A DNA stretch of 25,777 bases from a virus, in the IMG/VR virus record IMGVR_UViG_3300020207_000142, positions 1 through 25,777 of that record. One strand, 5' to 3'. Positions within the stretch are counted from its first letter, which is position 1. Each line of letters opens with the position of its first letter. The position numbers were made by a program, and so were the translations under genes. This document shows, piece after piece, positions 14,511-25,777 of the stretch. The notes under the pieces are model-generated. The model did no database searches, was not told the origin of the DNA, and worked only from the letters and a program-made list of their open reading frames with translations.

Positions 14511-17500
14511 CTATCCTAATGCCACTGAGAATGCTATAGATTGCGATTGCGAAGCAAATGTACCTGCATCAGCAGAATCACCTTTTGGACCTTGTTCACC
14601 ACGTTGTCCAATAGATGAGTACAATTGCCAGTTACTATTTATATAGATGAATTCGATGATTGATTGACCAAGGTCAAGCTCGAAGTTTTCAGCATAACCT
14701 TCAATTGTTTCACCATTTCTATCTACAATTACTGAATTATTTGTCCAATCTCCAACATCAATAAGTTTGATATAATCACCTGTTGTTGGTGATCCCGGAA
14801 GTGTTACTGTAATAACTCCACCACTTGTATCGATAGCATATCTACCAGCCGATACTGCAGTAAAGTCAGAATCATATACAGTATAATCTGTTGAGAAAAC
14901 TCTAAAGTCTGAGTCAAATCCAAGATAACGACCTCTAAGAGCTCCAAAGTTCCAAGTACCAAGCTCAAATGAAGGATCATTGCGATCAATCGTAGTTGCT
15001 GCTGGGCTAGAGTCTAAATCATCTTGAACTAGATTATTGAACGTGTACCATTCGCCATTAGTTGCATCTCTAAAGAAACCAGCTCTACGTATTGTGGATC
15101 CACCATCTTGAGAATATCTTCCAACAACACCAATATCTACAACATCATTTGTATTCGAATCTGCCAGTTTGATAAGTGCATTTGTAACACGAAGGTCTGT
15201 AGTTTCATTTAGAATATAATCGCCACCAACAACCAAATCTCCAGTGATATTAACGTTTCCAGTAAATGAACCGCCAGCAAATTCCACAGAATCAGCCGTA
15301 CTTACTGCTTGGCCTATCGCAATCTCGCCAGCAGTAATTGTAACACCAGTTCCACCAGTAAAGTGGGCTCTTACTTCGTTAGCAGATGGTCCAACATAAG
15401 AAATAAGACCTGTTGAAGCATTATATGAAAGCGACCCATCACCTCCGCCATCATTTACATCAATTGCATTTCTTGCATCTGAATCCGCTCGAGCAGTAGT
15501 ATAATATAAGTTAGTGCCTTCTGAAACATCAGTTGTTAAGATACTTGCATTAATGTATGAATCAACTCTTGCATCTGTATAGTAAAGGTTTGTTCCTTCA
15601 CTTAGATCTGATGTTGATCTTGCTGAGAGAGAAGCCGCTGATAAAGTACCAAATAGTGTTCCTGTTGCTGTAACGTTTCCAGCTGCAATAATGTCTTGAG
15701 CTCTAATATTTTTATCAACACCGAGTCCACCAGCAATTACTACAGAAGCATTTGTTTTAGATGTAGCTTCAGTAGTATTAGTTGTAATGACTTGACCAGA
15801 ACTATTTACTGTAAGTAATGATGTTCCACCTGATAGATCAAATGGTGTATCACCAATATTATTCTTAATAATAAAGTCAGTATTTGTTCCAGAGAATCCA
15901 ATTACAAAATCATTATCAGCCGCATTACCTGTTGTACCAATTGCATGGTCATATTGGTTATCAACACCGAGAGCTACAACCGCATCTCTTGAAGAGTCAT
16001 TTGAAACTACATTAAATACGGTCTGAGTATTATCACCTTTGAATTGTTGAGTATTAATTGAAACACTACCATATGAATCACCAAAGATAGTTGTTCCATT
16101 AATTGTAACACTATTAAAGTCTACATCAGCCAGTGAATCAACTTCTTGACCAATAGAGATTTGACCACTAGACAGTGTAACGCCAGTACCGGCTGAGAAG
16201 TGCGCACGAACCTCAGAAGCACTCGGACCGGTATAAGTTAAAGTTCCAGTAGCTGAATCGTATGTAAAGCTTCCATCACCGCCAGCATCTATTGCTTGGA
16301 TAGCCTGACGAGCTCTTGATAGAGTATAATCAGAATCCATAATAGTGGTATTAAAAGACCCGCCATCGGCTGTACTAATTGTAAGAATGCCAGAAGCAGA
16401 ATCAAAGCTAACCGAAGAAACTCCAGCGACTTGAACTGTGCCCGCAGAATCTATTTGACCCTGAGCATTTACTGTAAAGACTGGAATTTCAGTTGAGGAT
16501 CCATAAGTTGCTGCAGTAACGCCAGTGTTTGTAATACTAAACGTGCCAGTAGCTGGAGTATATGTTAATCCAGTTCCGTTAGTTAATGCATTTTTAGCAT
16601 CACTGTCAGCTCTTGCGGTTGTATAATATAAATTTGTACTACCTTCGGTTAGGTCATCAGTAGTATTATCACCAAAATCAGAATCAAATCTAGCAGTAGT
16701 ATAATAAAGGTTATCGCCTTCAGCCAGATTATCTGTAGTTTTAGTTGCTAATCTAACATCAAATGCGCTATCAGCTCTGGATGTAGTATAATAAAGATTA
16801 TCACCTTCAGATAGATCAGTCGTACTAAAGTTAGTTAATCCAATTCTAGCATTAAAGGATCCGCCATCCGCTGTTCCAATATTTAATGTAGCATTGGCCG
16901 AATCAAATGTAAAGGTAGAAACTCCAGCAACAGGTACAACACCAGCTGAATCTAGTTGTCCTTGAGCATTTACAGTAAAGACTGGAATTTGTGTAGAAGA
17001 TCCATATGTGCTAGCACTAACACCAGTATTAGTAATGCTTAGAGTATTTGTGGAAGAGTCATAAGACAGTCCAGTGCCATTTAATGCAGCAGCATCAAGA
17101 GATGTATTAAAATCAGAATCAAAGTTTGTTTGTGTATAAACTGATTCTACATCAAAACTAAATTGACCAGTATTCGAATCATATTGTAAGTCTCCAGCAG
17201 CAGAGAAATGAGATCTTACTTCAGCGGCACTTGGTCCGGTGTAAGTGAATGTTCCTGTTGCAGAATCATATGAGAACGAACCATCACCACCAGCATCAAT
17301 AGCTCTAATAGCGCTTCTTGTTCTAGAGTTAGTTAAATCAGAATCAAGGATAGTCGCATTAAATACGCCACCATCTGCAGTATTAATAGTTAAGATACCG
17401 GTAGCCGAATCAAATGCGGTGGATGTTACGCCAGCAACTGATACTGTACCAATTGAATCTATTTGGCCTTGTTCATTTACAGTAACAACTGGAACTAAAG

Positions 17501-19169
17501 ATGCTGAACCATATATGCCACCAACAACACCTGTGTTTGTAATATCAATTGTACCAGTAGAAGCGGTGTATGTAATACCTGTCCCACCAGTTAATGCATT
17601 TTTAGCAGCGCTGTCAGCTCGAGCTGTAGTATAATAAAGGTTATCCCCTTCTGATAGATCAGTAGTACTATGCTCAGAAAGGACATTAATATCTCTACCA
17701 AGGGGACGATTCAAATCCCATGTAGCATTTGAATGATCGTATATGATTGAAGCATTTGCTCCAGCTACGGTAATTCCAGCGCCGTTGGCAGCTGCAGAAT
17801 CTAGAGCAGAATCTGCTAGAACAATGTTTTTATCATTTACAGATAAAGTTGTAGAATTAATTGTAGTGGTTGTACCATCAACTCTTAAATCGCCAAGAAT
17901 AGTAAGATCATTATCCACTTGAAGATTATCTCTAATACGAGTTTGATTTTCAAGGATTTCAAATCTTAAATTATTATCCCAATAAAGCTCAGTACCACCA
18001 TGATCTCTAAAGTGTGCTAGGTCTCTTTCACCATCAAAAGATTGAAGATGGATAGTTCCACTGTCGCGTGACATGATATAAATGTTACCACCTGATTCTC
18101 CAGGAAGATCTACATTTGTTCTTCTGATAAAGAAATCTCCGCCATTTTCAAAAATGTCGGCAATCCCTTCGCAGAAGGTGATTTTCTGGTTATCAGGCAA
18201 TCTAATACCAGCGTCAAATATTTCTTCTCTGTCAGTACGAGCGATCTTTGATTCTTGGAAAGTAAATACACCAGTTGTACTATCATAAGCGAAAAGATCA
18301 GAATCAGTAGTTAAACTAATCGCTGATCTAACTCTACCATCAGTATAATATAGATTCGTAGAACCTTCGCTAATAGCATCAGACGAAGTCGCACCAGTTG
18401 AAGAATCATATGATCTAGCAAAATCGGAATCAAATCTTGCTTTTGTATAGTAAATATTTGTTGTGCCTTCAGAAAGATCATCAGTCGTATTTGCTGACAA
18501 ATCAAAAGCTCTAACTGCGCCACCTGCACTTGTTATAGTTAGCTGATTGCCAATATCTTTTAAAACGAGTCCACCTAAATGGAGTGATCCGCCTGAAAGA
18601 TAAAGATCTTTCCATTTCTTTAGTGGAGAGCCTAAATCATGTGCGCTATCTTCGTCTGGAAGAATATCCCCAATAACTTTAATGCCATACTCTTCAGTCT
18701 CTAACTTATGTACGCCATCATAGTAAAGTTCAATTTTATCACTGTCTGCGTATGTTCTTAATAAAGTATTATTACTAACGTTATCAATAATGCCAAAGGT
18801 GTTAGCAGCGAATAAAATACCACCACCGCTGTCAGCGACTTGAAATTGAGCATATCTTATATTATCGTTATTTGGAGGAGTTGGATATGTACGATCAAAA
18901 ATTCTTAGATAGCCATCACCTGTTGAATCTTGTAATCTAAGAACTTGCGTAGTAACTTGATCTTGAATTTGCGCAGCGAAACTACTAAAAATAAATTTTT
19001 GTTGATCGCTATCCCAAACTAAGATATTTTCAATAGAGGAGAGATTTGTTTCATCAACATCATCAAGACGAACAAGACTACCAACCGAAGGCTCTCCAAT
19101 TTTTGTAGGAGTTCCAACAGTGATTCTTTTAACTATTGTAGTTCCTTCTGATACGACGCGAATAACCAT
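14511..19169 (-). CDS. Giant repeat-built fibre protein (1552 aa)
   Basis: The largest gene of the window. The N-terminal 60 residues (MVIRVVSEGTTIVKRITVGT, then VGSLVRLDDVDE...ENILVWDS) look like a virion-attachment domain. The shaft is built from recurring units. Eight copies of (D/N)LSEG...YYT(T/D/K).R fall between about residues 235 and 1225, interleaved with YGSSTQIPVFTVNAQGQLDS-type and AGGDGSFTYDSATGTLTYTG-type units. LPDEDSAHDLGSPLKKWKDLYL and TTTINSTTLSVNDKNIVLADSA are classic tail fibre motifs. The C-terminal domain has GGVITVTLPGSPTTGDYIKL and INSNWQLYSSIGQRGEQGPK. The short GEQGPKGDS is collagen-like. The ATG at 19169 follows a strong AAGGGGGA. I infer a long tail fibre or baseplate fibre; receptor binding is not proven. 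Confidence 0.88.
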   Translation of the reverse strand: MVIRVVSEGTTIVKRITVGTPTKIGEPSVGSLVRLDDVDETNLSSIENILVWDSDQQKFIFSSFAAQIQDQVTTQVLRLQDSTGDGYLRIFDRTYPTPPNNDNIRYAQFQVADSGGGILFAANTFGIIDNVSNNTLLRTYADSDKIELYYDGVHKLETEEYGIKVIGDILPDEDSAHDLGSPLKKWKDLYLSGGSLHLGGLVLKDIGNQLTITSAGGAVRAFDLSANTTDDLSEGTTNIYYTKARFDSDFARSYDSSTGATSSDAISEGSTNLYYTDGRVRSAISLTTDSDLFAYDSTTGVFTFQESKIARTDREEIFDAGIRLPDNQKITFCEGIADIFENGGDFFIRRTNVDLPGESGGNIYIMSRDSGTIHLQSFDGERDLAHFRDHGGTELYWDNNLRFEILENQTRIRDNLQVDNDLTILGDLRVDGTTTTINSTTLSVNDKNIVLADSALDSAAANGAGITVAGANASIIYDHSNATWDLNRPLGRDINVLSEHSTTDLSEGDNLYYTTARADSAAKNALTGGTGITYTASTGTIDITNTGVVGGIYGSASLVPVVTVNEQGQIDSIGTVSVAGVTSTAFDSATGILTINTADGGVFNATILDSDLTNSRTRSAIRAIDAGGDGSFSYDSATGTFTYTGPSAAEVRSHFSAAGDLQYDSNTGQFSFDVESVYTQTNFDSDFNTSLDAAALNGTGLSYDSSTNTLSITNTGVSASTYGSSTQIPVFTVNAQGQLDSAGVVPVAGVSTFTFDSANATLNIGTADGGSFNARIGLTNFSTTDLSEGDNLYYTTSRADSAFDVRLATKTTDNLAEGDNLYYTTARFDSDFGDNTTDDLTEGSTNLYYTTARADSDAKNALTNGTGLTYTPATGTFSITNTGVTAATYGSSTEIPVFTVNAQGQIDSAGTVQVAGVSSVSFDSASGILTISTADGGSFNTTIMDSDYTLSRARQAIQAIDAGGDGSFTYDSATGTLTYTGPSASEVRAHFSAGTGVTLSSGQISIGQEVDSLADVDFNSVTINGTTIFGDSYGSVSINTQQFKGDNTQTVFNVVSNDSSRDAVVALGVDNQYDHAIGTTGNAADNDFVIGFSGTNTDFIIKNNIGDTPFDLSGGTSLLTVNSSGQVITTNTTEATSKTNASVVIAGGLGVDKNIRAQDIIAAGNVTATGTLFGTLSAASLSARSTSDLSEGTNLYYTDARVDSYINASILTTDVSEGTNLYYTTARADSDARNAIDVNDGGGDGSLSYNASTGLISYVGPSANEVRAHFTGGTGVTITAGEIAIGQAVSTADSVEFAGGSFTGNVNITGDLVVGGDYILNETTDLRVTNALIKLADSNTNDVVDIGVVGRYSQDGGSTIRRAGFFRDATNGEWYTFNNLVQDDLDSSPAATTIDRNDPSFELGTWNFGALRGRYLGFDSDFRVFSTDYTVYDSDFTAVSAGRYAIDTSGGVITVTLPGSPTTGDYIKLIDVGDWTNNSVIVDRNGETIEGYAENFELDLGQSIIEFIYINSNWQLYSSIGQRGEQGPKGDSADAGTFASQSQSIAFSVALG
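15480..18470 (-). repeat. Array of LSEG...YYT fibre repeats in the 1552-aa gene
   Basis: Eight copies encoding the motif (D/N)LSEG(S/T/D)NLYYTTARADS occur, with YYT codons near 15505, 15582, 16621, 16705, 16794, 17633, 18350 and 18452. They alternate with longer units carrying GDGSF(S/T)YDSATGT and VFTVNAQGQIDSAG. Copies differ at many third positions, so this is old protein-level repetition rather than recent tandem duplication. Confidence 0.8.
16804..16933 (-). repeat. Fibre module repeat, copy B (pair at 10387-10516)
   Basis: The gapless 130-bp partner of the segment in the 468-aa fibre gene. It encodes AGVSTFTFDSANATLNIGTA and DGGSFNARIGLTNFSTTDLSEG. Confidence 0.8.
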
Positions 19170-19569: not shown

Positions 19570-19577
19570 TATTTATA
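19570..19577 (-). promoter_or_regulatory. T4-type late promoter box TATAAATA ahead of the 118-aa protein and giant fibre
   Basis: Exact TATAAATA on the minus strand, overlapping the last codons of the preceding glycosyltransferase gene by a few bases. It separates the enzyme cassette from the late fibre genes. The predicted start is near 19564. Confidence 0.72.
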
Positions 19578-20280
19578 TAAAATATTTCTCCATTTTTATG
19601 TAAACAGAAGAATCAGCCTGGGAAACTACACAAAAGGTTTTACTAGGATCGTATATGTATCCATCTGATTCGATATACTTTGGATCGTAAGATTCTAGAC
19701 CTTTGTTGCGAAAGTAATAATCTTTTGAAAAGTCTATCCAATTAAATTTATCAAAATATAATTCAGACAAAAACCTGTCAAGACCATAATAAAAGACTAT
19801 ATTAAAATCTAAATCATCAAAGAACTTATTATAAATGTCTTTATGATTACAATAAAAACCAAGTATTGAAGAATTAATTTTTGCTTCTGGTATTGTTAGT
19901 ATATTTTCTTCGTTTCCATCATACGGATAGTAAACACCATAGTGTCTTCCATTGATTGTTAATATTTTTTCTTGTTTTATCTGATTTATAATGTGGTCAA
20001 AATTATTTTGAATTATAACGTCCAAATCAAAATACAAAACAGGTCCAGATAAATTTAAATTAAATAAGCATATCTTCCACCAATAAGATTCTAAATCTAA
20101 AGATGTATCAAGTGGAATTATGTTAATGCCTTCAATGTCTGTATCAGAAAGGCAATAAAAATAAAATGGTAAAGAAATGTTTTTCTCTACCATCCTATAA
20201 AGTCTTTTTACATGTTCACTATTATATTTAGTTCCGTATTTTACACAGACTATGTTAACATGGGTTTTCAAGATCTTCAA
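19573..20280 (-). CDS. Putative GT-A type glycosyltransferase (235 aa)
   Basis: A 235-residue protein with the layout of a small GT8-like nucleotide-sugar transferase: an N-terminal beta strand NIVCVKYGTKYNSEHVKRLY, FYFYCLSDTD, then YWWKICLFNLNLSGPVLYFD reaching the DLDVII motif (Asp85-x-Asp87), the metal-binding DxD. Later it has SSILGFYCN and DRFLSELYF. No C-terminal membrane segment is seen. The start is not ATG. The reading frame opens with TTG at 20280, only three bases after GAGG; a second TTG at 20271 has a 12-base spacing. The conserved strand begins at residue 8, so one of these two is likely. It overlaps the oxygenase end by up to 26 bases. The sugar donor and acceptor are unknown. 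It is the last gene of the cassette. Confidence 0.8.
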   Translation of the reverse strand: MKILKTHVNIVCVKYGTKYNSEHVKRLYRMVEKNISLPFYFYCLSDTDIEGINIIPLDTSLDLESYWWKICLFNLNLSGPVLYFDLDVIIQNNFDHIINQIKQEKILTINGRHYGVYYPYDGNEENILTIPEAKINSSILGFYCNHKDIYNKFFDDLDFNIVFYYGLDRFLSELYFDKFNWIDFSKDYYFRNKGLESYDPKYIESDGYIYDPSKTFCVVSQADSSVYIKMEKYFI

Positions 20281-20929
20281 TTACCTCTTGCCAAAAATTG
20301 TCTGCTTCAGCAAATACAAATGCAACTGTAATACGGTAACAATCTGTATATGCAGCATGATAACATAATTTATCTGGAGAATCATAAGGTCCGAAATAAG
20401 TCATTTTTGCTTGCCATCCAGGTTTATCTTGAACACGGATTCTTTCTTTTTTCTCTATATCCCAATAATCAAACCAGCCATCACCTGTTTCTGAATATGT
20501 AATAATGATATTATATCCAGGAGCATTTGCATTGTTGTGCCAAGAAATAAATCCTCCTGGAGGATAGCATGCATTCAATGCATTGTTTTTGCAAGATAAA
20601 AATTCAATTAATTTAGTATTTAAAACTCTAGATGCATCTTTAATTATCTTTCCACGCGTGCTATCATCTTCATGCTTTAACCCAGAGAATCCCTTTAGCA
20701 CTCTTGGAAAACCATCATGTTCTCTTCCCATTCCTATAACATTATGCATGTATTCATCTGAAATCCAATCTTCAGCTTTGTCATTCTCATGGCGAATAGG
20801 AATTTCTTTTGCAATCAAAGGAGGATCGTCTGGTTTTTCTCTATGAAGAAGAACATCTTTATATTCATTTAAAATATCAATAAAATCTTGATTTTGTAAA
20901 TCAATATCTCTGACAGGCACTTGTGACAT
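20255..20929 (-). CDS. 2-oxoglutarate/Fe(II)-dependent oxygenase (prolyl-hydroxylase-like fold)
   Basis: A 224-residue protein from the ATG at 20929, chosen because AAAGGA sits about eight bases upstream and the ATG overlaps the preceding stop (TAATG). A longer in-frame start at 20965 lies inside the upstream gene. The double-stranded beta-helix core is visible: NACYPPGGFISWHNNANAPG, YNIIITYSETGDGWFDYWD, and MTYFGPYDSPDKLCYHAAYT followed by DCYRITVAFVF. Candidate ligands are His131 (WHNN) and His191 (CYHAA), with Arg199 in the expected spacing for 2-oxoglutarate. The usual Asp of HxD is Asn133 here. Such oxygenases are frequent in marine T4-like phages near fibre genes. The substrate is unknown: fibre protein, nucleotide or surface sugar are all possible. 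Confidence 0.85.
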   Translation of the reverse strand: MSQVPVRDIDLQNQDFIDILNEYKDVLLHREKPDDPPLIAKEIPIRHENDKAEDWISDEYMHNVIGMGREHDGFPRVLKGFSGLKHEDDSTRGKIIKDASRVLNTKLIEFLSCKNNALNACYPPGGFISWHNNANAPGYNIIITYSETGDGWFDYWDIEKKERIRVQDKPGWQAKMTYFGPYDSPDKLCYHAAYTDCYRITVAFVFAEADNFWQEVIEDLENPC

Positions 20930-21768
20930 TATAAAAATCCTTTTTCGCCATATTTGTCCATCCAACTTGAATAATGTATTACAACTGGATGCGGGTTAGT
21001 TTTCCAATAATCTCTTTTAGGATCTACAATGTGGCAATTATGAGTACCATCTTTATTAAATCCAAATGATGTAAAGTAGTTCCATCTATAGTTTTCATCA
21101 AAGAATTTCCACTTTAATGATTTATATTTTGGTGAATGATAAATTAACCACCATAATGTTAGTTGATCCCATTGTCTAAAGTTTCCCTTTTGAATATACT
21201 TAAATTCTATAGGATCCCATTGACCTACTCTTTGTTTTAAAAATAGTTCATACCAATCATACATAAATTCTTTAACTAATGGATTACGCATATCATATAG
21301 AGCTACACCACCACAATGAGCTAAATGATCTGGTACTCCGGTCCATCCATCATCATATAAATTAGGACCCCAATTCCATTCGGCAAAATGCCTAGCGCCT
21401 TCTTTAGTCAAATTGACATAAGCCATATCATGACCATCTAAAAGATCAAAAACATTAGATATATCGTCATGAACAATTTCAATGTCAGCATCTAGATAAA
21501 AAGTTAAATCATATGGAGAATTAGCCATTCCCCACATTTTTTCTCTATTTGTATTAGAAGGTGTAGCAATTACTTTTTCAAATGAAGAAAAATACTGCTG
21601 ACATTTTGGGTCATCAATAAATTGTTGTTCAGTGAATAACGTTATATTAGCATCTTCATCGTGATCTAAAAGAGATTCTGCTAAATTTTGTGCACCAATA
21701 AGAAACTGAGTCCGTTTTGTAGCTACAGTAACATAGCCTTTAGTTGGACTCTCCGGTTTCTTGTTCAT
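20929..21768 (-). CDS. Putative glycosyltransferase with DAD motif (279 aa)
   Basis: A 279-residue GT-A fold candidate. It starts GYVTVATKRTQFLIGAQNLAESL, a nucleotide-sugar binding strand/helix. It has NREKMWGMANSPYDLTFYLD, then the DxD motif at Asp93-Ala94-Asp95 (YLDADIEI), HCGGVALYDMRNP as the probable acceptor-side loop, and NPHPVVIHYSSW near the end, whose His265 fits the C-terminal metal ligand of retaining GT8 enzymes. GGAG about seven bases before the ATG at 21768 supports the start, which overlaps the upstream ORF by 29 bases. It has no signal peptide or transmembrane segment, so it acts in the infected cell cytoplasm. It is part of the overlapping four-gene cassette. Donor and acceptor are not predictable. 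Confidence 0.85.
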   Translation of the reverse strand: MNKKPESPTKGYVTVATKRTQFLIGAQNLAESLLDHDEDANITLFTEQQFIDDPKCQQYFSSFEKVIATPSNTNREKMWGMANSPYDLTFYLDADIEIVHDDISNVFDLLDGHDMAYVNLTKEGARHFAEWNWGPNLYDDGWTGVPDHLAHCGGVALYDMRNPLVKEFMYDWYELFLKQRVGQWDPIEFKYIQKGNFRQWDQLTLWWLIYHSPKYKSLKWKFFDENYRWNYFTSFGFNKDGTHNCHIVDPKRDYWKTNPHPVVIHYSSWMDKYGEKGFL

Positions 21769-22198
21769 TCATAATCTCCATTAATAAAATTGTAGCGTAA
21801 GCATTCATTTCAACTACATTTTTTGCTTTACGTATTTTAGATTTTAACTTACGGTTTGTTGACTCTTTTATTTCTGGAATTTCAAACGTTTGCAACTTAT
21901 GATTAAAAAGATCTTCTAACCGTTTGGCTTCATTCTTTTCCTCTTGCTTTTTAATTTTTGCTTCACGTTCTTGCTTATGTCTTTCAAGTCTATCTTCTGT
22001 AAACTTGTCAATAGATTCCATTGTATTTTGTTCTAGAACTTCTTGATAGTCTGAAGTAATATCACCGCGATCATCATATTTTGAGACACGAGCCACAGTA
22101 GTAGAAAACGATCCATCATCGTGCGTAATATTCAGACGAACTGTTAATCTGTCCTTAGCAGCTGTTTCCCAAAATGGATGTTTCCATTCTTTTTTCAT
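21740..22198 (-). CDS. Unrecognised coiled-coil protein (152 aa), first gene of the modification cassette
   Basis: I do not recognise this protein. The N-terminal 45 residues look beta-rich (KDRLTVRLNITHDDGSFSTT, VARVSKYDDRGDI). A long charged helix follows, about residues 62-98, with DRLERHKQEREAKIKKQEEK, a probable coiled coil. The end has LKSKIRKAKNVVEMNAYATI. It begins with GGAG and good spacing at 22198, is the first ORF behind a sigma70-like promoter, and overlaps the glycosyltransferase start. Charge and shape would suit a scaffold, chaperone or adaptor for the enzymes that follow, but that is only an inference from context. Confidence 0.8.
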   Translation of the reverse strand: MKKEWKHPFWETAAKDRLTVRLNITHDDGSFSTTVARVSKYDDRGDITSDYQEVLEQNTMESIDKFTEDRLERHKQEREAKIKKQEEKNEAKRLEDLFNHKLQTFEIPEIKESTNRKLKSKIRKAKNVVEMNAYATILLMEIMNEQETGESN

Positions 22199-22284: not shown

Positions 22285-24795
22285 TTATGCAATTCTTACA
22301 TATAAAGTATAAGTTTCCTCAGTTCCACTGGTGGCATCAATCGTTTCCCCTTCAAAATTACCTACAAAGTTTCCAATATAATCCGTTAAATATTCAGCAT
22401 TATATACGTTTTCATAATCTGCAATGTAATCAGTGGAATAAGGAAAATTAAAAGCTCTTGTATATGTTCCAACATACTGAGTATTATATGTTGAAGCATA
22501 ATCTATAGTGTAATCTTTTGTATAGTTTATGCTGGTGTAGTCTGCAGCAAATGCAGGTCCAGTAAAATCTCCAAGATAATCTGTAGCGTAAAGAGGGGAT
22601 GCAAAATTTCCAGTATACGTAGGAGCCACATAATTTGTTATATAACTTCCAGATATATAGTTCGTTTGATAATTACCAGTATAATCTAGAGTATATACTC
22701 TAAGATAGGTATTACTATATCCTGCTACGTATGATACGCCGGGAGGACCTTGAGGAACAGAATCTGTAGATTGGAAATTACGAACGTAATTTCGAATATA
22801 GTTTGGTACATAATTCCCTTGGTATACAATATTATATTGAGGATCAAGAACATAGTTGCTTGTGTACAACCTCGAATATCTCGTGGTATAAATTAAATTT
22901 CTTGAGTAAATATTTGTGAGTATAAATTGTCTGGCATAAAAACTATCTTGCTGATAAGTTGTTGGATTAATAAATCCTATGTAACCGGTGTTACGTAGAT
23001 ATTGAGACACTGTATAGTTTCTGGCGTAATACGCGGCCCCTAATCTTGTATAAGTATTTAAGTTTCCGTAATTCCTGCCATAATATGACAAGGATGGGCC
23101 AAGATATGTTGGGCCAGAGTAATATCTTAGATAATATTGTGAGCCCCCACCTAAATAACTAGATGACGATCCCGAAGAGGATCCTTGATAATATCTAACT
23201 GGTCCACTTGATCTTACGTAGTAAGCAGAAGGAACATTTCTTGTATAATTGCGACCGTAGTATCCTGCAAAGTAGGTATTATTTGCGACATTTGCTGTGT
23301 AATTTCCAAGATATGTTGTTCCTCCTGCACCAAGATACTGTTGAGGAGTGGCGGAGAGGCCTGTATAGGCTCTAGCATAATATCTAGACGGCCCTAGATA
23401 ATATACAAGCCTAATATAGTTAGGAGTATAAAGTCTACTATAGAAATTGGTTACGGTGTACTGGCCAGTATAAACAAGATTTCTTGTATAGTTTACTAAT
23501 CGAGTATAAACACGGTCATACGTCCCAGCAAAATTAGAAGTATATGAAATCGCACCAGTATAGTTAACAGGTCTATTAATTACAAAAGCATCACCAGCAT
23601 AATTATTTACAAACCCTCTAGTATAAGTTCCTGTATAGTTTGTATCGTACCTTGTTGTATAATTTGCGCTAAAACCTATAAGAGTATAATTTGTTGTATA
23701 GTCTTGAGTATAGTTACCAATATATTCTACAGCATATTGACCTGTAAATTGTCTTTCATAATTACCAACATAGTTACCGGTGTATATTCTAATATAATTT
23801 GGAACATAATTATTTACATAATTACCTAAATATTGATTTGCATATGCTCTAGCATATAAAGGACCAGAATATGTCGTTGTATATGGTGTCGAATCAAAAG
23901 TACCAGTATAAGTATTTGTATAGGCTTTTACATATGGTAAAGTATAGACATTAGTATATCCACGTGTATAATTTTGTTGGAACGTAGATGTACTATCTCG
24001 AGTAAATATTTGTTGACTTGTAGTTTGCTTTGTATCAGTGGCAGAACCTTTTGATACCCAAGTCCCAGGGTCTGTTGGAGCACCTTGTGCAGAAGTTCTT
24101 AGTTGATATGTACCAATTTTAGAAGCACCAATACGAGTCTTTGCTCTTTGACCAAATGAATATTGAATTTGGCGATCAGTCATCGCTCTGAGTTTTATAC
24201 CAGAACCACCAGCACTATCTTCAACAAACATTGGTCTCACAGTAGTTGGAGCTGTATAATTATCTCTGCGGTAAATGTTATAACCAATAGACGTACCATC
24301 AGTTCTTGTATCTGTAAAGACTGATGATAGCCAAACTGAATAATCTACACCTGGAGATGAAGAAGCTAATCTAAATACTCCAGGATAATCATTTGTAAAT
24401 ATTGTTGCAAGATAACGGTCAACTGCTTCATTTAGATCTACATCTGGCATCATTTTAAAACCAGTTTCAGAAGATCCTGCTGAATCTACCCACATTAAAG
24501 GAGAATAAACATCTGAATCTGTTTCAGGCGCAGTGCCTTGACTTTGATATACATTTGTAGTTGTGCTACCTGATGTAATGGATGTTGATGGATGCGTTCC
24601 TACTGGTTCATTAAAAAATGTATCTACAAAAGAACCAATATTAGTGTGGGACGCATTAGTTGTAATACTACCAGTACCATTCGGTCCTGAGGCTGCTAAA
24701 TGTTTTCCAATCTGATATGCAATATAGTTTTCTTCAGAAGTTGTAAACTCCTGAATATTACCACCGGCGTCTTTTATCTTGAGTGGAGTTGCCAT
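22285..24795 (-). CDS. Tyrosine-repeat virion protein (836 aa)
   Basis: A non-repetitive N-terminal domain (1-265) starts MATPLKIKDAGGNIQEFTTS and contains VDSAGSSETGFKMMPDVDLN, EAVDRYLATIFTNDYPGVF and KLRAMTDRQIQYSFGQRAKT, which looks like a virion-binding domain. From about 276 to 815 the sequence is dominated by Tyr at spacing four or close to it, with units such as YTGN, YVGN, YTRN and YARA. In residues 322-370 an aromatic residue occurs at every fourth position for 13 turns. A Ser/Gly-rich insert (about 538-552) and a collagen-like QGPPG (682-686) interrupt the array. The last 20 residues are a non-repeat cap. There is no signal peptide. I infer an adhesive or structural fibre; the function is unknown. 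AAGGATAAT precedes the ATG, and a late promoter lies at 24829-24836. Confidence 0.87.
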   Translation of the reverse strand: MATPLKIKDAGGNIQEFTTSEENYIAYQIGKHLAASGPNGTGSITTNASHTNIGSFVDTFFNEPVGTHPSTSITSGSTTTNVYQSQGTAPETDSDVYSPLMWVDSAGSSETGFKMMPDVDLNEAVDRYLATIFTNDYPGVFRLASSSPGVDYSVWLSSVFTDTRTDGTSIGYNIYRRDNYTAPTTVRPMFVEDSAGGSGIKLRAMTDRQIQYSFGQRAKTRIGASKIGTYQLRTSAQGAPTDPGTWVSKGSATDTKQTTSQQIFTRDSTSTFQQNYTRGYTNVYTLPYVKAYTNTYTGTFDSTPYTTTYSGPLYARAYANQYLGNYVNNYVPNYIRIYTGNYVGNYERQFTGQYAVEYIGNYTQDYTTNYTLIGFSANYTTRYDTNYTGTYTRGFVNNYAGDAFVINRPVNYTGAISYTSNFAGTYDRVYTRLVNYTRNLVYTGQYTVTNFYSRLYTPNYIRLVYYLGPSRYYARAYTGLSATPQQYLGAGGTTYLGNYTANVANNTYFAGYYGRNYTRNVPSAYYVRSSGPVRYYQGSSSGSSSSYLGGGSQYYLRYYSGPTYLGPSLSYYGRNYGNLNTYTRLGAAYYARNYTVSQYLRNTGYIGFINPTTYQQDSFYARQFILTNIYSRNLIYTTRYSRLYTSNYVLDPQYNIVYQGNYVPNYIRNYVRNFQSTDSVPQGPPGVSYVAGYSNTYLRVYTLDYTGNYQTNYISGSYITNYVAPTYTGNFASPLYATDYLGDFTGPAFAADYTSINYTKDYTIDYASTYNTQYVGTYTRAFNFPYSTDYIADYENVYNAEYLTDYIGNFVGNFEGETIDATSGTEETYTLYVRIA
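22351..23970 (-). repeat. Tyr-rich tetrapeptide-like repeat array
   Basis: This DNA encodes residues 276-815 of the 836-aa protein. In the most regular stretch, 23686-23832, an aromatic codon recurs every 12 bases, giving YxxN-type units; elsewhere spacings of four, five and three alternate. The DNA copies are not identical, so selection appears to act on the protein pattern. Confidence 0.85.
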
Positions 24796-24840: not shown

Positions 24841-25777
24841 TTAATATTTGTTTAAAAGATCTGTGACAGCGTCAGTTCCAACAATTGCATCATAATCAAA
24901 ATAGTTGAAATCTATATTAACATCGGTATAGCTTGTAGAATTCCCATTTTGTGCCCAAATTCCATCACCGACTGCAATTCTACTTCCAAAGTAAGAGTCG
25001 TCGTTGCCGGCTCCACCAAAACTAGTTAAAAGATCTCCAGTGTATAAATCATATATGTAGATTTTACCAAGCGCGTTACCATACCCACCGCCATTATCGC
25101 CCCATTGCGAATCAGCTACAAAAAGCCTGTTGTCTTCTATGAGGATTCGACTGCCAAAAGAAGCATTGTTGTTACCATTTTGACTTTCATCAGGAGGAGA
25201 AATAGTTCTTAAATAGTTACCATTCATATCATATAATTGAACTAAACCAGAGTTATATGGATCTGGATCTAATAAATCTTTATCTCTAGTTTTTTTAGTG
25301 GCTGGGAAACTGAGAGCTATCATGCCATGTCCAATTGCGATATCAGCGTCAACATCGTGCTCGATAGGCCCCCATGGTGTGTACGAATTTATATATGATT
25401 TATAATTTCCATTTAAATCAAAAATGTAAGCTTTAGGATTAGCGTTGTTAGTTGTATCGCTATAGTCATCATCTATCTCTAAGTTAACAACAATCCGCCC
25501 GCAGCCAACTTTAACTTTACTACCCATTCTAGAATAATCTCTTAATCCAGGAATTGGCATATCAAAACCTGTACCACTTTCATCCCTTGGCCTATTTTCA
25601 ACTTTCCGTAATAAATATCCATCTAAACTTAAAATTCCAAACGCGCCAATACCAGTACTTCTTACAATTCGATCTCCCCAGTTTAGTCCCGAAACTACAA
25701 CTCTGCCATCTCCTGCGGCAAGATCATCAATGTCACAAGTGACTGCGCTTGGATACCCCGAAGAAGTATACTCTCTT
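24841..25777 (-). CDS. Beta-propeller (FG-GAP-like) repeat protein, C-terminal part; N-terminus beyond the window
   Basis: The frame is open to the window edge: 72 codons upstream of an internal Met at 25560 read through without a stop, giving 311 visible residues. Repeats of one pattern recur: AAGDGRVVVSGLNWGDRIV, RMGSKVKVGCGRIVVNLEI, AIGHGMIALSFPA, FGSRILIEDNRLFVADSQWG and FGSRIAVGDGIWAQ, each followed by a strand such as GLVQLYDMNGNYLRTI or GKIYIYDLYTGDLLTSF. FGS-x-(I/V) plus GDGRI resembles integrin-type FG-GAP blades, and acidic loops (DADIAIGHG, GNDDSYFGS) could bind Ca2+. The C-terminal 40 residues leave the pattern. Context (T4-like fibre region) suggests a virion adhesin or fibre head; function is inferred. 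Internal Met codons are not starts. Confidence 0.8.
   Translation of the reverse strand, partial: REYTSSGYPSAVTCDIDDLAAGDGRVVVSGLNWGDRIVRSTGIGAFGILSLDGYLLRKVENRPRDESGTGFDMPIPGLRDYSRMGSKVKVGCGRIVVNLEIDDDYSDTTNNANPKAYIFDLNGNYKSYINSYTPWGPIEHDVDADIAIGHGMIALSFPATKKTRDKDLLDPDPYNSGLVQLYDMNGNYLRTISPPDESQNGNNNASFGSRILIEDNRLFVADSQWGDNGGGYGNALGKIYIYDLYTGDLLTSFGGAGNDDSYFGSRIAVGDGIWAQNGNSTSYTDVNIDFNYFDYDAIVGTDAVTDLLNKY

Follow-up and report, generated by a model that had tools for sequence, protein, structure and literature searches.

The window studied here is a whole stretch of 25,777 nucleotides from a marine virus (IMG/VR record IMGVR_UViG_3300020207_000142). It carries on its minus strand a gene for a protein of 836 residues, in which a long array of short tyrosine-anchored tetrads stands between a head of three modules and a C-terminal strand. 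The initial annotation had placed the repeats at 22351-23970, a range that corresponds to residues 276-815 of this protein; the plus strand of the range has stops throughout, and the coding strand is the minus one. The features of the gene are as follows, with the basis of each in brackets.

22285..24795, minus strand: whole array gene, 836 aa (open reading frame; homologues C48C1 WJE88074, L005, L006 and L007)
24532..24792, minus strand: head module 1, about residues 2-88, with a b-b-a-b-b pattern (AF2 model of the window protein; hhalign homology)
24256..24507, minus strand: head module 2, about residues 97-180 (AF2; hhalign of module 2 against module 3, E 8e-22)
24025..24246, minus strand: first part of head module 3, about residues 184-257, into whose last hairpin loop the array is inserted (hhalign; AF2 strand E246-272)
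22348..24024, minus strand: Tyr tetrad array, residues 258-816, 559 aa (periodicity; boundaries from the head and cap profiles)
23686..23856, minus strand: 15 aromatics in a regular i+4 series, residues 314-370, which covers 322-370 (periodicity count)
23188..24024, minus strand: putative outgoing arm A, residues 258-536 (arms of 279/280, measured up to YY in the midpoint motif)
22966..23388, minus strand: array middle, about residues 470-610, irregular in period and a proposed distal turn or tip, where YYQGSSSGSSSS (535-546) marks the exact midpoint (lag-4 regularity; YYQG)
22348..23187, minus strand: putative returning arm B, residues 537-816, including a second run of 15 at 758-814 (periodicity and midpoint)
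22288..22347, minus strand: C-terminal cap strand, residues 817-836 (ETIDATSGTEETYTLYVRIA), predicted to complete module 3 (pLDDT; profile alignment)

Periodicity of the array and its neighbouring genes

Aromatic residues make up 22.5% of residues 271-830 of the window protein, and at i and i+4 they form 77 pairs where shuffles give 28.1 (z 11.5). Harmonics of the period are seen at 8, 12 and 16, and pairs at lags 3 and 6 are depleted. The i+4 signal thus stands well above shuffles in the periodicity analysis that had been suggested for this protein. Two i+4 runs of 15 aromatics are found, at residues 314-370 and 758-814, while the longest run in 2000 shuffles is 9; the thirteen successive aromatics formerly counted over residues 322-370 are correct and belong to the first of these runs. 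The periodic array is real as described, but it starts near residue 258 and not at 276, and its regularity is strict in the outer parts while the strict period is lost in the middle, about residues 470-610. In fact the lag-4 regularity is 0.67-1.0 over the first three deciles of the array and 0.62-0.90 over the last three, against 0.31-0.36 in deciles 4-7.

At the DNA level, no 15-base word occurs twice in the part encoding residues 258-816 and both tyrosine codons are used there (TAT 83, TAC 22), so the DNA copies have diverged. Where close relatives share an array type, the changes of their aromatic codons are mainly silent or F<->Y; for example between L104 and L080, 43 are silent and 12 are replacing, 11 of the 12 being F<->Y. 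This means that the pattern is held by selection in the related arrays, and the initial annotation was right in proposing diverged copies beneath a selected amino acid pattern. Moreover, the homologues obtained from the scans of viral contigs keep the period; its loss in them, which would have spoken against the initial annotation, is not what is seen. Its view of a fibrous rather than enzymatic protein with a tyrosine ladder is supported by the periodicity, by the codon conservation and by the Phe/Tyr matching in relatives described below; the ladder is kept, but in place of a linear one we now read a hairpin with a tip at its midpoint, from the three-module head, the returning C-terminal strand and the mirror symmetry of the family. 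A collagen-like fibre, which would need Gly at every third residue, does not fit, for the window array has a period of 4 and no Gly-X-Y tract in its sequence.

In the window a linked cassette (19573-22198) comes after the array gene and is made up of these genes.

21740..22198, minus strand: charged protein of ~155 aa (A6), a possible chaperone or anchor (A6 homologue downstream in 54/59 array loci)
20929..21768, minus strand: glycosyltransferase-like protein (A4) with an invariant Y-x-D-x-D (alignment; A4 homologue in 51/59 loci)
20255..20965, minus strand: conserved protein (A5) with a WHNN..H..R pattern (alignment; A5 homologue in 48/59 loci)
19573..20280, minus strand: second glycosyltransferase-like gene (phrog_1962 glycosyltransferase, 7e-13)

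All of A6, A4 and A5 lie downstream of the array gene in 47 of the 59 loci with enough sequence, and they are conserved across very diverged array loci; they may plausibly have a dedicated part in the folding or modification of the fibre. The A4 family has weak Pfam matches, Glycos_transf_2 in 6 members and Nucleotid_trans in 2 with 3.5e-7 as the best of the two, while the A4 protein of the window itself has no Pfam match. For A5 no match was obtained in Pfam, NCBIfam, PHROG or PDB, and its reading as a 2OG-Fe(II) oxygenase is not confirmed, the resemblance being one of motif alone: WHNN...H...R gives HxN where the iron-binding triad has HxD/E...H, and there is no profile match. The sole phage record in which the A4 glycosyltransferase and A5 genes were found is that of phage C48C1, which also carries an array; there the array gene comes after genes for the baseplate wedge and for a tail assembly chaperone. 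In the window, genes for a tail sheath, a head-tail adaptor and proteins of tail-fibre type are also present. A protein of the latter type, 1552 aa long, is encoded at 14511-19169 and contains many 'DLSEGxNLYYTxARxDS' repeats, and upstream of the array gene (24841-25776 in the window; 1334-5955 in L005) there are paralogues with repeated 'LYDLNGNYL/FGSRIAIGDGR' units that look beta-propeller-like.

Head modules, C-terminal cap and the family

The head modules 1, 2 and 3 of the family are mutually homologous at 97-99% probability in hhalign, and module 3 taken together with the C-terminal cap, a strand of about 20 aa in the family, aligns to the end of module 2, with LWQRT against LWLRT. This alignment indicates that the array is inserted in the last hairpin loop of module 3, and from an insertion in such a loop it follows that the chain must go out and return to its start. 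In the AF2 model of the window protein the head is confident and the last 26 residues have pLDDT 74-97, with the array below 50, and the strands E246-272 and E806-834 are where the pairing rule puts them. A short member of 344 aa (L016) was modelled with a mean pLDDT of 83.9; its strands E234-258 and E310-342 fit the pairing rule, and a low-confidence tip hairpin, E273-282/E285-295, is located at the array midpoint. What is used from these single-chain models is the strand assignments and the confidence, the array having no confident structure in them. In the models, the C-terminal strand docks on head module 3.

Viral contigs were scanned with a pattern and with a profile, and both gave many further members; with duplicates removed, the family counts 103 non-redundant complete members. 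The head ends at residue 240-303 across them, the C-terminus is conserved and the array ranges from 52 to 3065 aa. The family is unnamed and is widespread in environmental phages. The window protein has no Pfam match above the curated cut-off and no PHROG match at E < 0.01, and the other members have just weak Pfam or PHROG matches, confined to the array; Gly-zipper_YMGG and Gly-zipper_Omp of Pfam, for instance, are sub-threshold compositional matches to the arrays of L081 and L016 which leave the head unmatched. No relative was found in PDB by the family profile, no match below 1e-3 by Foldseek against PDB and BFVD, and no convincing structural relative by VIA-align, a result that does not show the fold to be new; in the literature library searched, no description of such repeats was found.

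Among 50,697 phage records the head is present in one, C48C1 (Kyanoviridae), in a hypothetical protein of 3347 aa, and the window head is 44% identical to it over 263 aa (E 2e-52). By profiles, the window protein has the same architecture of three-module head, array and C-terminal LYxRxA strand. The C48C1 protein (WJE88074) thus resembles the window protein in a homologous head, a tetrad array, a C-terminal cap and the same following genes, while it differs in a far longer array of 3065 aa, in Arg-Thr-rich tetrads and in globular insertions. Several of these globular inserts are seen in the second half of its array, and two of them are near-duplicates (KTRHRSYLYYSTDTSTNQQFFEPRVDD...). The scan of bacterial genomes found the head in two MAG contigs alone (L229 and L217), binned as Gammaproteobacteria and Rhodobacteraceae; these contigs are likely phage sequence, and the binning is perhaps a hint to the hosts. 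Matches to the array pattern in bacterial genomes were mostly chance, and a structural protein of S-RIM2 was discarded as a relative, its sequence having no tyrosine tetrads. Tandem paralogues with differing array lengths are common in the family (L072, L124, L012, L009, L019 and L086), and such paralogues could give one virion two fibre lengths.

Mirror symmetry and the array midpoint

In the clean short members, a single turn such as YIRY|FSGRNAG is located at the centre of the array. The members share ancestry, and neither the following count of turns nor those of inserts and Phe/Tyr pairs are independent: 60 members, whose arrays span 52 to 568 aa, have exactly one hit of the turn motif, which falls within the middle tenth in 52 of them and at <=2 residues from equal arms in 46, by a definition that does not depend on position but was made after seeing examples, so an exact p-value needs care. 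Moreover, for the 49 members with a central turn, the Phe/Tyr identities at i+j=n+8 are matched (YY 451, FF 118, FY 29, YF 11) with 0.449 bits, as compared with at most 0.039 in within-protein shuffles, 0.097 at the best other mirror register and 0.146 at the best parallel register.

The six-residue units which break up the tetrads (GPKTY, GTSAY, GSRNY) behave likewise. For 139 out of 270 such inserts a partner stands at the mirror position; rotating one arm gives 32 (sd 7.3), and a parallel register explains 63. As to the paired types, Lys/Pro with Thr-Ser (K:T) is found 93 times, Arg with Arg (R:R) 50 times and all others 6 times. For example in L103, the inserts of arm A read AK AK TS TS DK DK NK and those of arm B TS TS TS PK PK TS TS, an order that fits the antiparallel reading only; a parallel, that is tandem, pairing of the halves is ruled out by the register scans. 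It is hard to obtain one sharp register from shared ancestry alone, and since a mirrored order in protein is not producible by DNA duplication or inversion (an inverted repeat encodes another peptide), selection on pairing is the simplest cause. The pairing of the arms is well supported in the clean members. In a two-stranded beta ribbon, this register would put the Tyr:Tyr and Gly:Gly rungs on the same face and pair Thr/Ser/Ala with Asn/Thr on the opposite one. Over the 33 less regular arrays, the pooled Phe/Tyr matching is modest (Stouffer 4.0).

The midpoint has a behavior of its own. Between L104 and L030 the identity is 90-100% along both arms and 38-78% at residues 851-1000, the midpoint being at 935.5, and such variability is as expected of a distal receptor-binding tip. 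In the long arrays the loss of period clusters centrally, the middle fifth accounting for 19 out of 36 (p 1e-5); a loose midpoint motif, in arrays over 330 aa, is at chance level (14/34 against 14 expected). The midpoint would carry a distal and variable tip, which probably binds the receptor.

As for the array of the window protein itself, YYQG is located at the exact midpoint both here (279|280) and in L007 (198|198), although the array of L007 is shorter by 163 aa; this midpoint with its equal arms is supportive, not conclusive, for the hairpin architecture of one protein. Phe/Tyr mirror matching is absent in the window array (z -0.16) and in the two relatives nearest to it, L007 (z -0.13) and L006 (z -2.73). 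When mirror scoring is compared with shifted arms, these three proteins give z of about 1.5, 2.5 and 0.6, which is suggestive at most, and aromatic coincidence alone gives no clear register peak in the window array. The window array is degenerate. Retained in the protein are the head, a C-terminus docked to it, the midpoint turn and an array centre that loses the period. The hairpin reading of this protein rests on homology, C-terminal docking and the midpoint, and we infer that its array keeps the same fold as the clean members.

A long antiparallel hairpin as the predicted shaft

We consider it likely that the protein is a phage tail fibre or adhesin, the shaft of which is one very long antiparallel hairpin. 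The three head modules would form the base, and the chain would leave from the last loop of module 3 as an outgoing arm of [Y/F]-x-[G/R]-[N/D/T] tetrads, turn at the midpoint and come back as a returning arm of equal length, so that the final ~20 residues would supply the strand completing module 3. In the cleaner members, the arms would be zipped in one register, with Tyr:Tyr or Phe:Phe at every fourth rung and Gly:Gly between, and two-residue bulges would come in matched pairs, Lys/Pro with Thr-Ser and Arg with Arg. The array length would then be a ruler for the fibre length; by calculation with 0.33 nm per residue, each fully extended arm of the window protein would measure ~90 nm. The beta-ribbon form of the arms, the location in the virion, the binding of a receptor, the oligomer state and the modification are predicted here. 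Going further, we lean towards an undescribed fold, namely an intramolecular antiparallel zipper with up to hundreds of residues in each arm, where like aromatics and paired inserts (Lys/Pro:Thr-Ser, Arg:Arg) would serve as a register code, palindrome-like, with a receptor-binding tip at the midpoint and possibly a maturation by the glycosyltransferase and A5.

The arms might instead pair between subunits, arm A with arm B of a neighbour, in an intertwined dimer or trimer with the same architecture and tip. Known phage fibre shafts are commonly trimeric, and both the covariation in a single register and the C-terminal docking fit equally well if the chains are strand-swapped, for covariation cannot separate pairing within a chain from pairing between chains; what speaks for one chain is that the single-chain AF2 model places the C-terminal strand confidently with its own head, although AF2 cannot exclude swapping. 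We keep such swapping as a tentative possibility of limited weight. Less credit is given to a largely disordered array acting as a sticky tyrosine-rich tether that is modified by the linked glycosyltransferase and A5. The low pLDDT of the array would agree with this, as would the cassette linked in 47/59 loci and the occurrence of its glycosyltransferase and A5 in no phage record besides C48C1; however, low pLDDT is expected with shallow repeat alignments, and the equality of the arms, the one covariation register and the paired inserts require an ordered pairing in the clean members, which makes the tether improbable.

A conventional linear shaft, with the head at the base, an array running one way, its periodicity that of a beta-spiral, a solenoid or a similar repeat fold, and a distal C-terminus, would be in line with most known phage fibres and with the window array, in which Phe/Tyr mirror pairing is not detectable. 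It is nevertheless very doubtful: the C-terminal strand completes module 3 and has a confident place with the head in the models, the turns lie exactly at the midpoint, and the mirror register is sharp, with an order that does not come from DNA duplication. Finally, a low-complexity expansion carrying no structural meaning could account for the narrow composition and the greatly varying array lengths, but it is scarcely credible, contradicted as it is by a period beyond composition, by diverged DNA with conserved aromatic codons and by the mirror covariation.

The triple-stranded beta-helix of T4 gp5 and the triple beta-spiral of adenovirus are repetitive beta-rich shafts with repeats of 8 and 15 residues and a one-way chain. 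The predicted hairpin differs from both in the period of 4 and in a chain that would return to the base. As regards the head, T4 gp11 (PDB 1el6) and the Klebsiella KP1 baseplate chain 9f4b_FD have a local match at one module hairpin, over ~43 residues with 24-26% identity and Z 2.2, which is within noise; they have no array, and a part in the tail baseplate would suit the position. Altogether, the hairpin anatomy of the family points to a kind of viral fibre absent from the libraries searched. If this is true, the shaft would be unlike the collagen, coiled-coil, beta-helix and beta-spiral shafts of textbooks, with an array size that sets the length, both chain ends at the base and the binding tip in mid-sequence. 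It would moreover show annotators where the receptor-binding regions sit in this environmental phage family, and the matching code (Phe:Phe, Tyr:Tyr, Arg:Arg, Lys/Pro:Thr-Ser) would be a testable rule for the register of a very long beta ribbon.

Some departures from the common architecture are also observed. In L044 (7874-12448), the head contains a large insertion of propeller-like repeats ('FGDNNLEVVGNKVFISQV...'). The MAG contig of L229 also encodes a glycine-rich protein (L236, 4376, plus strand) that lacks the family head but has a few tetrads in a short stretch (YTGTYTGVYTGIYTG...YSGREVGPYSG) including a central turn, and from this stretch the hairpin may be portable.
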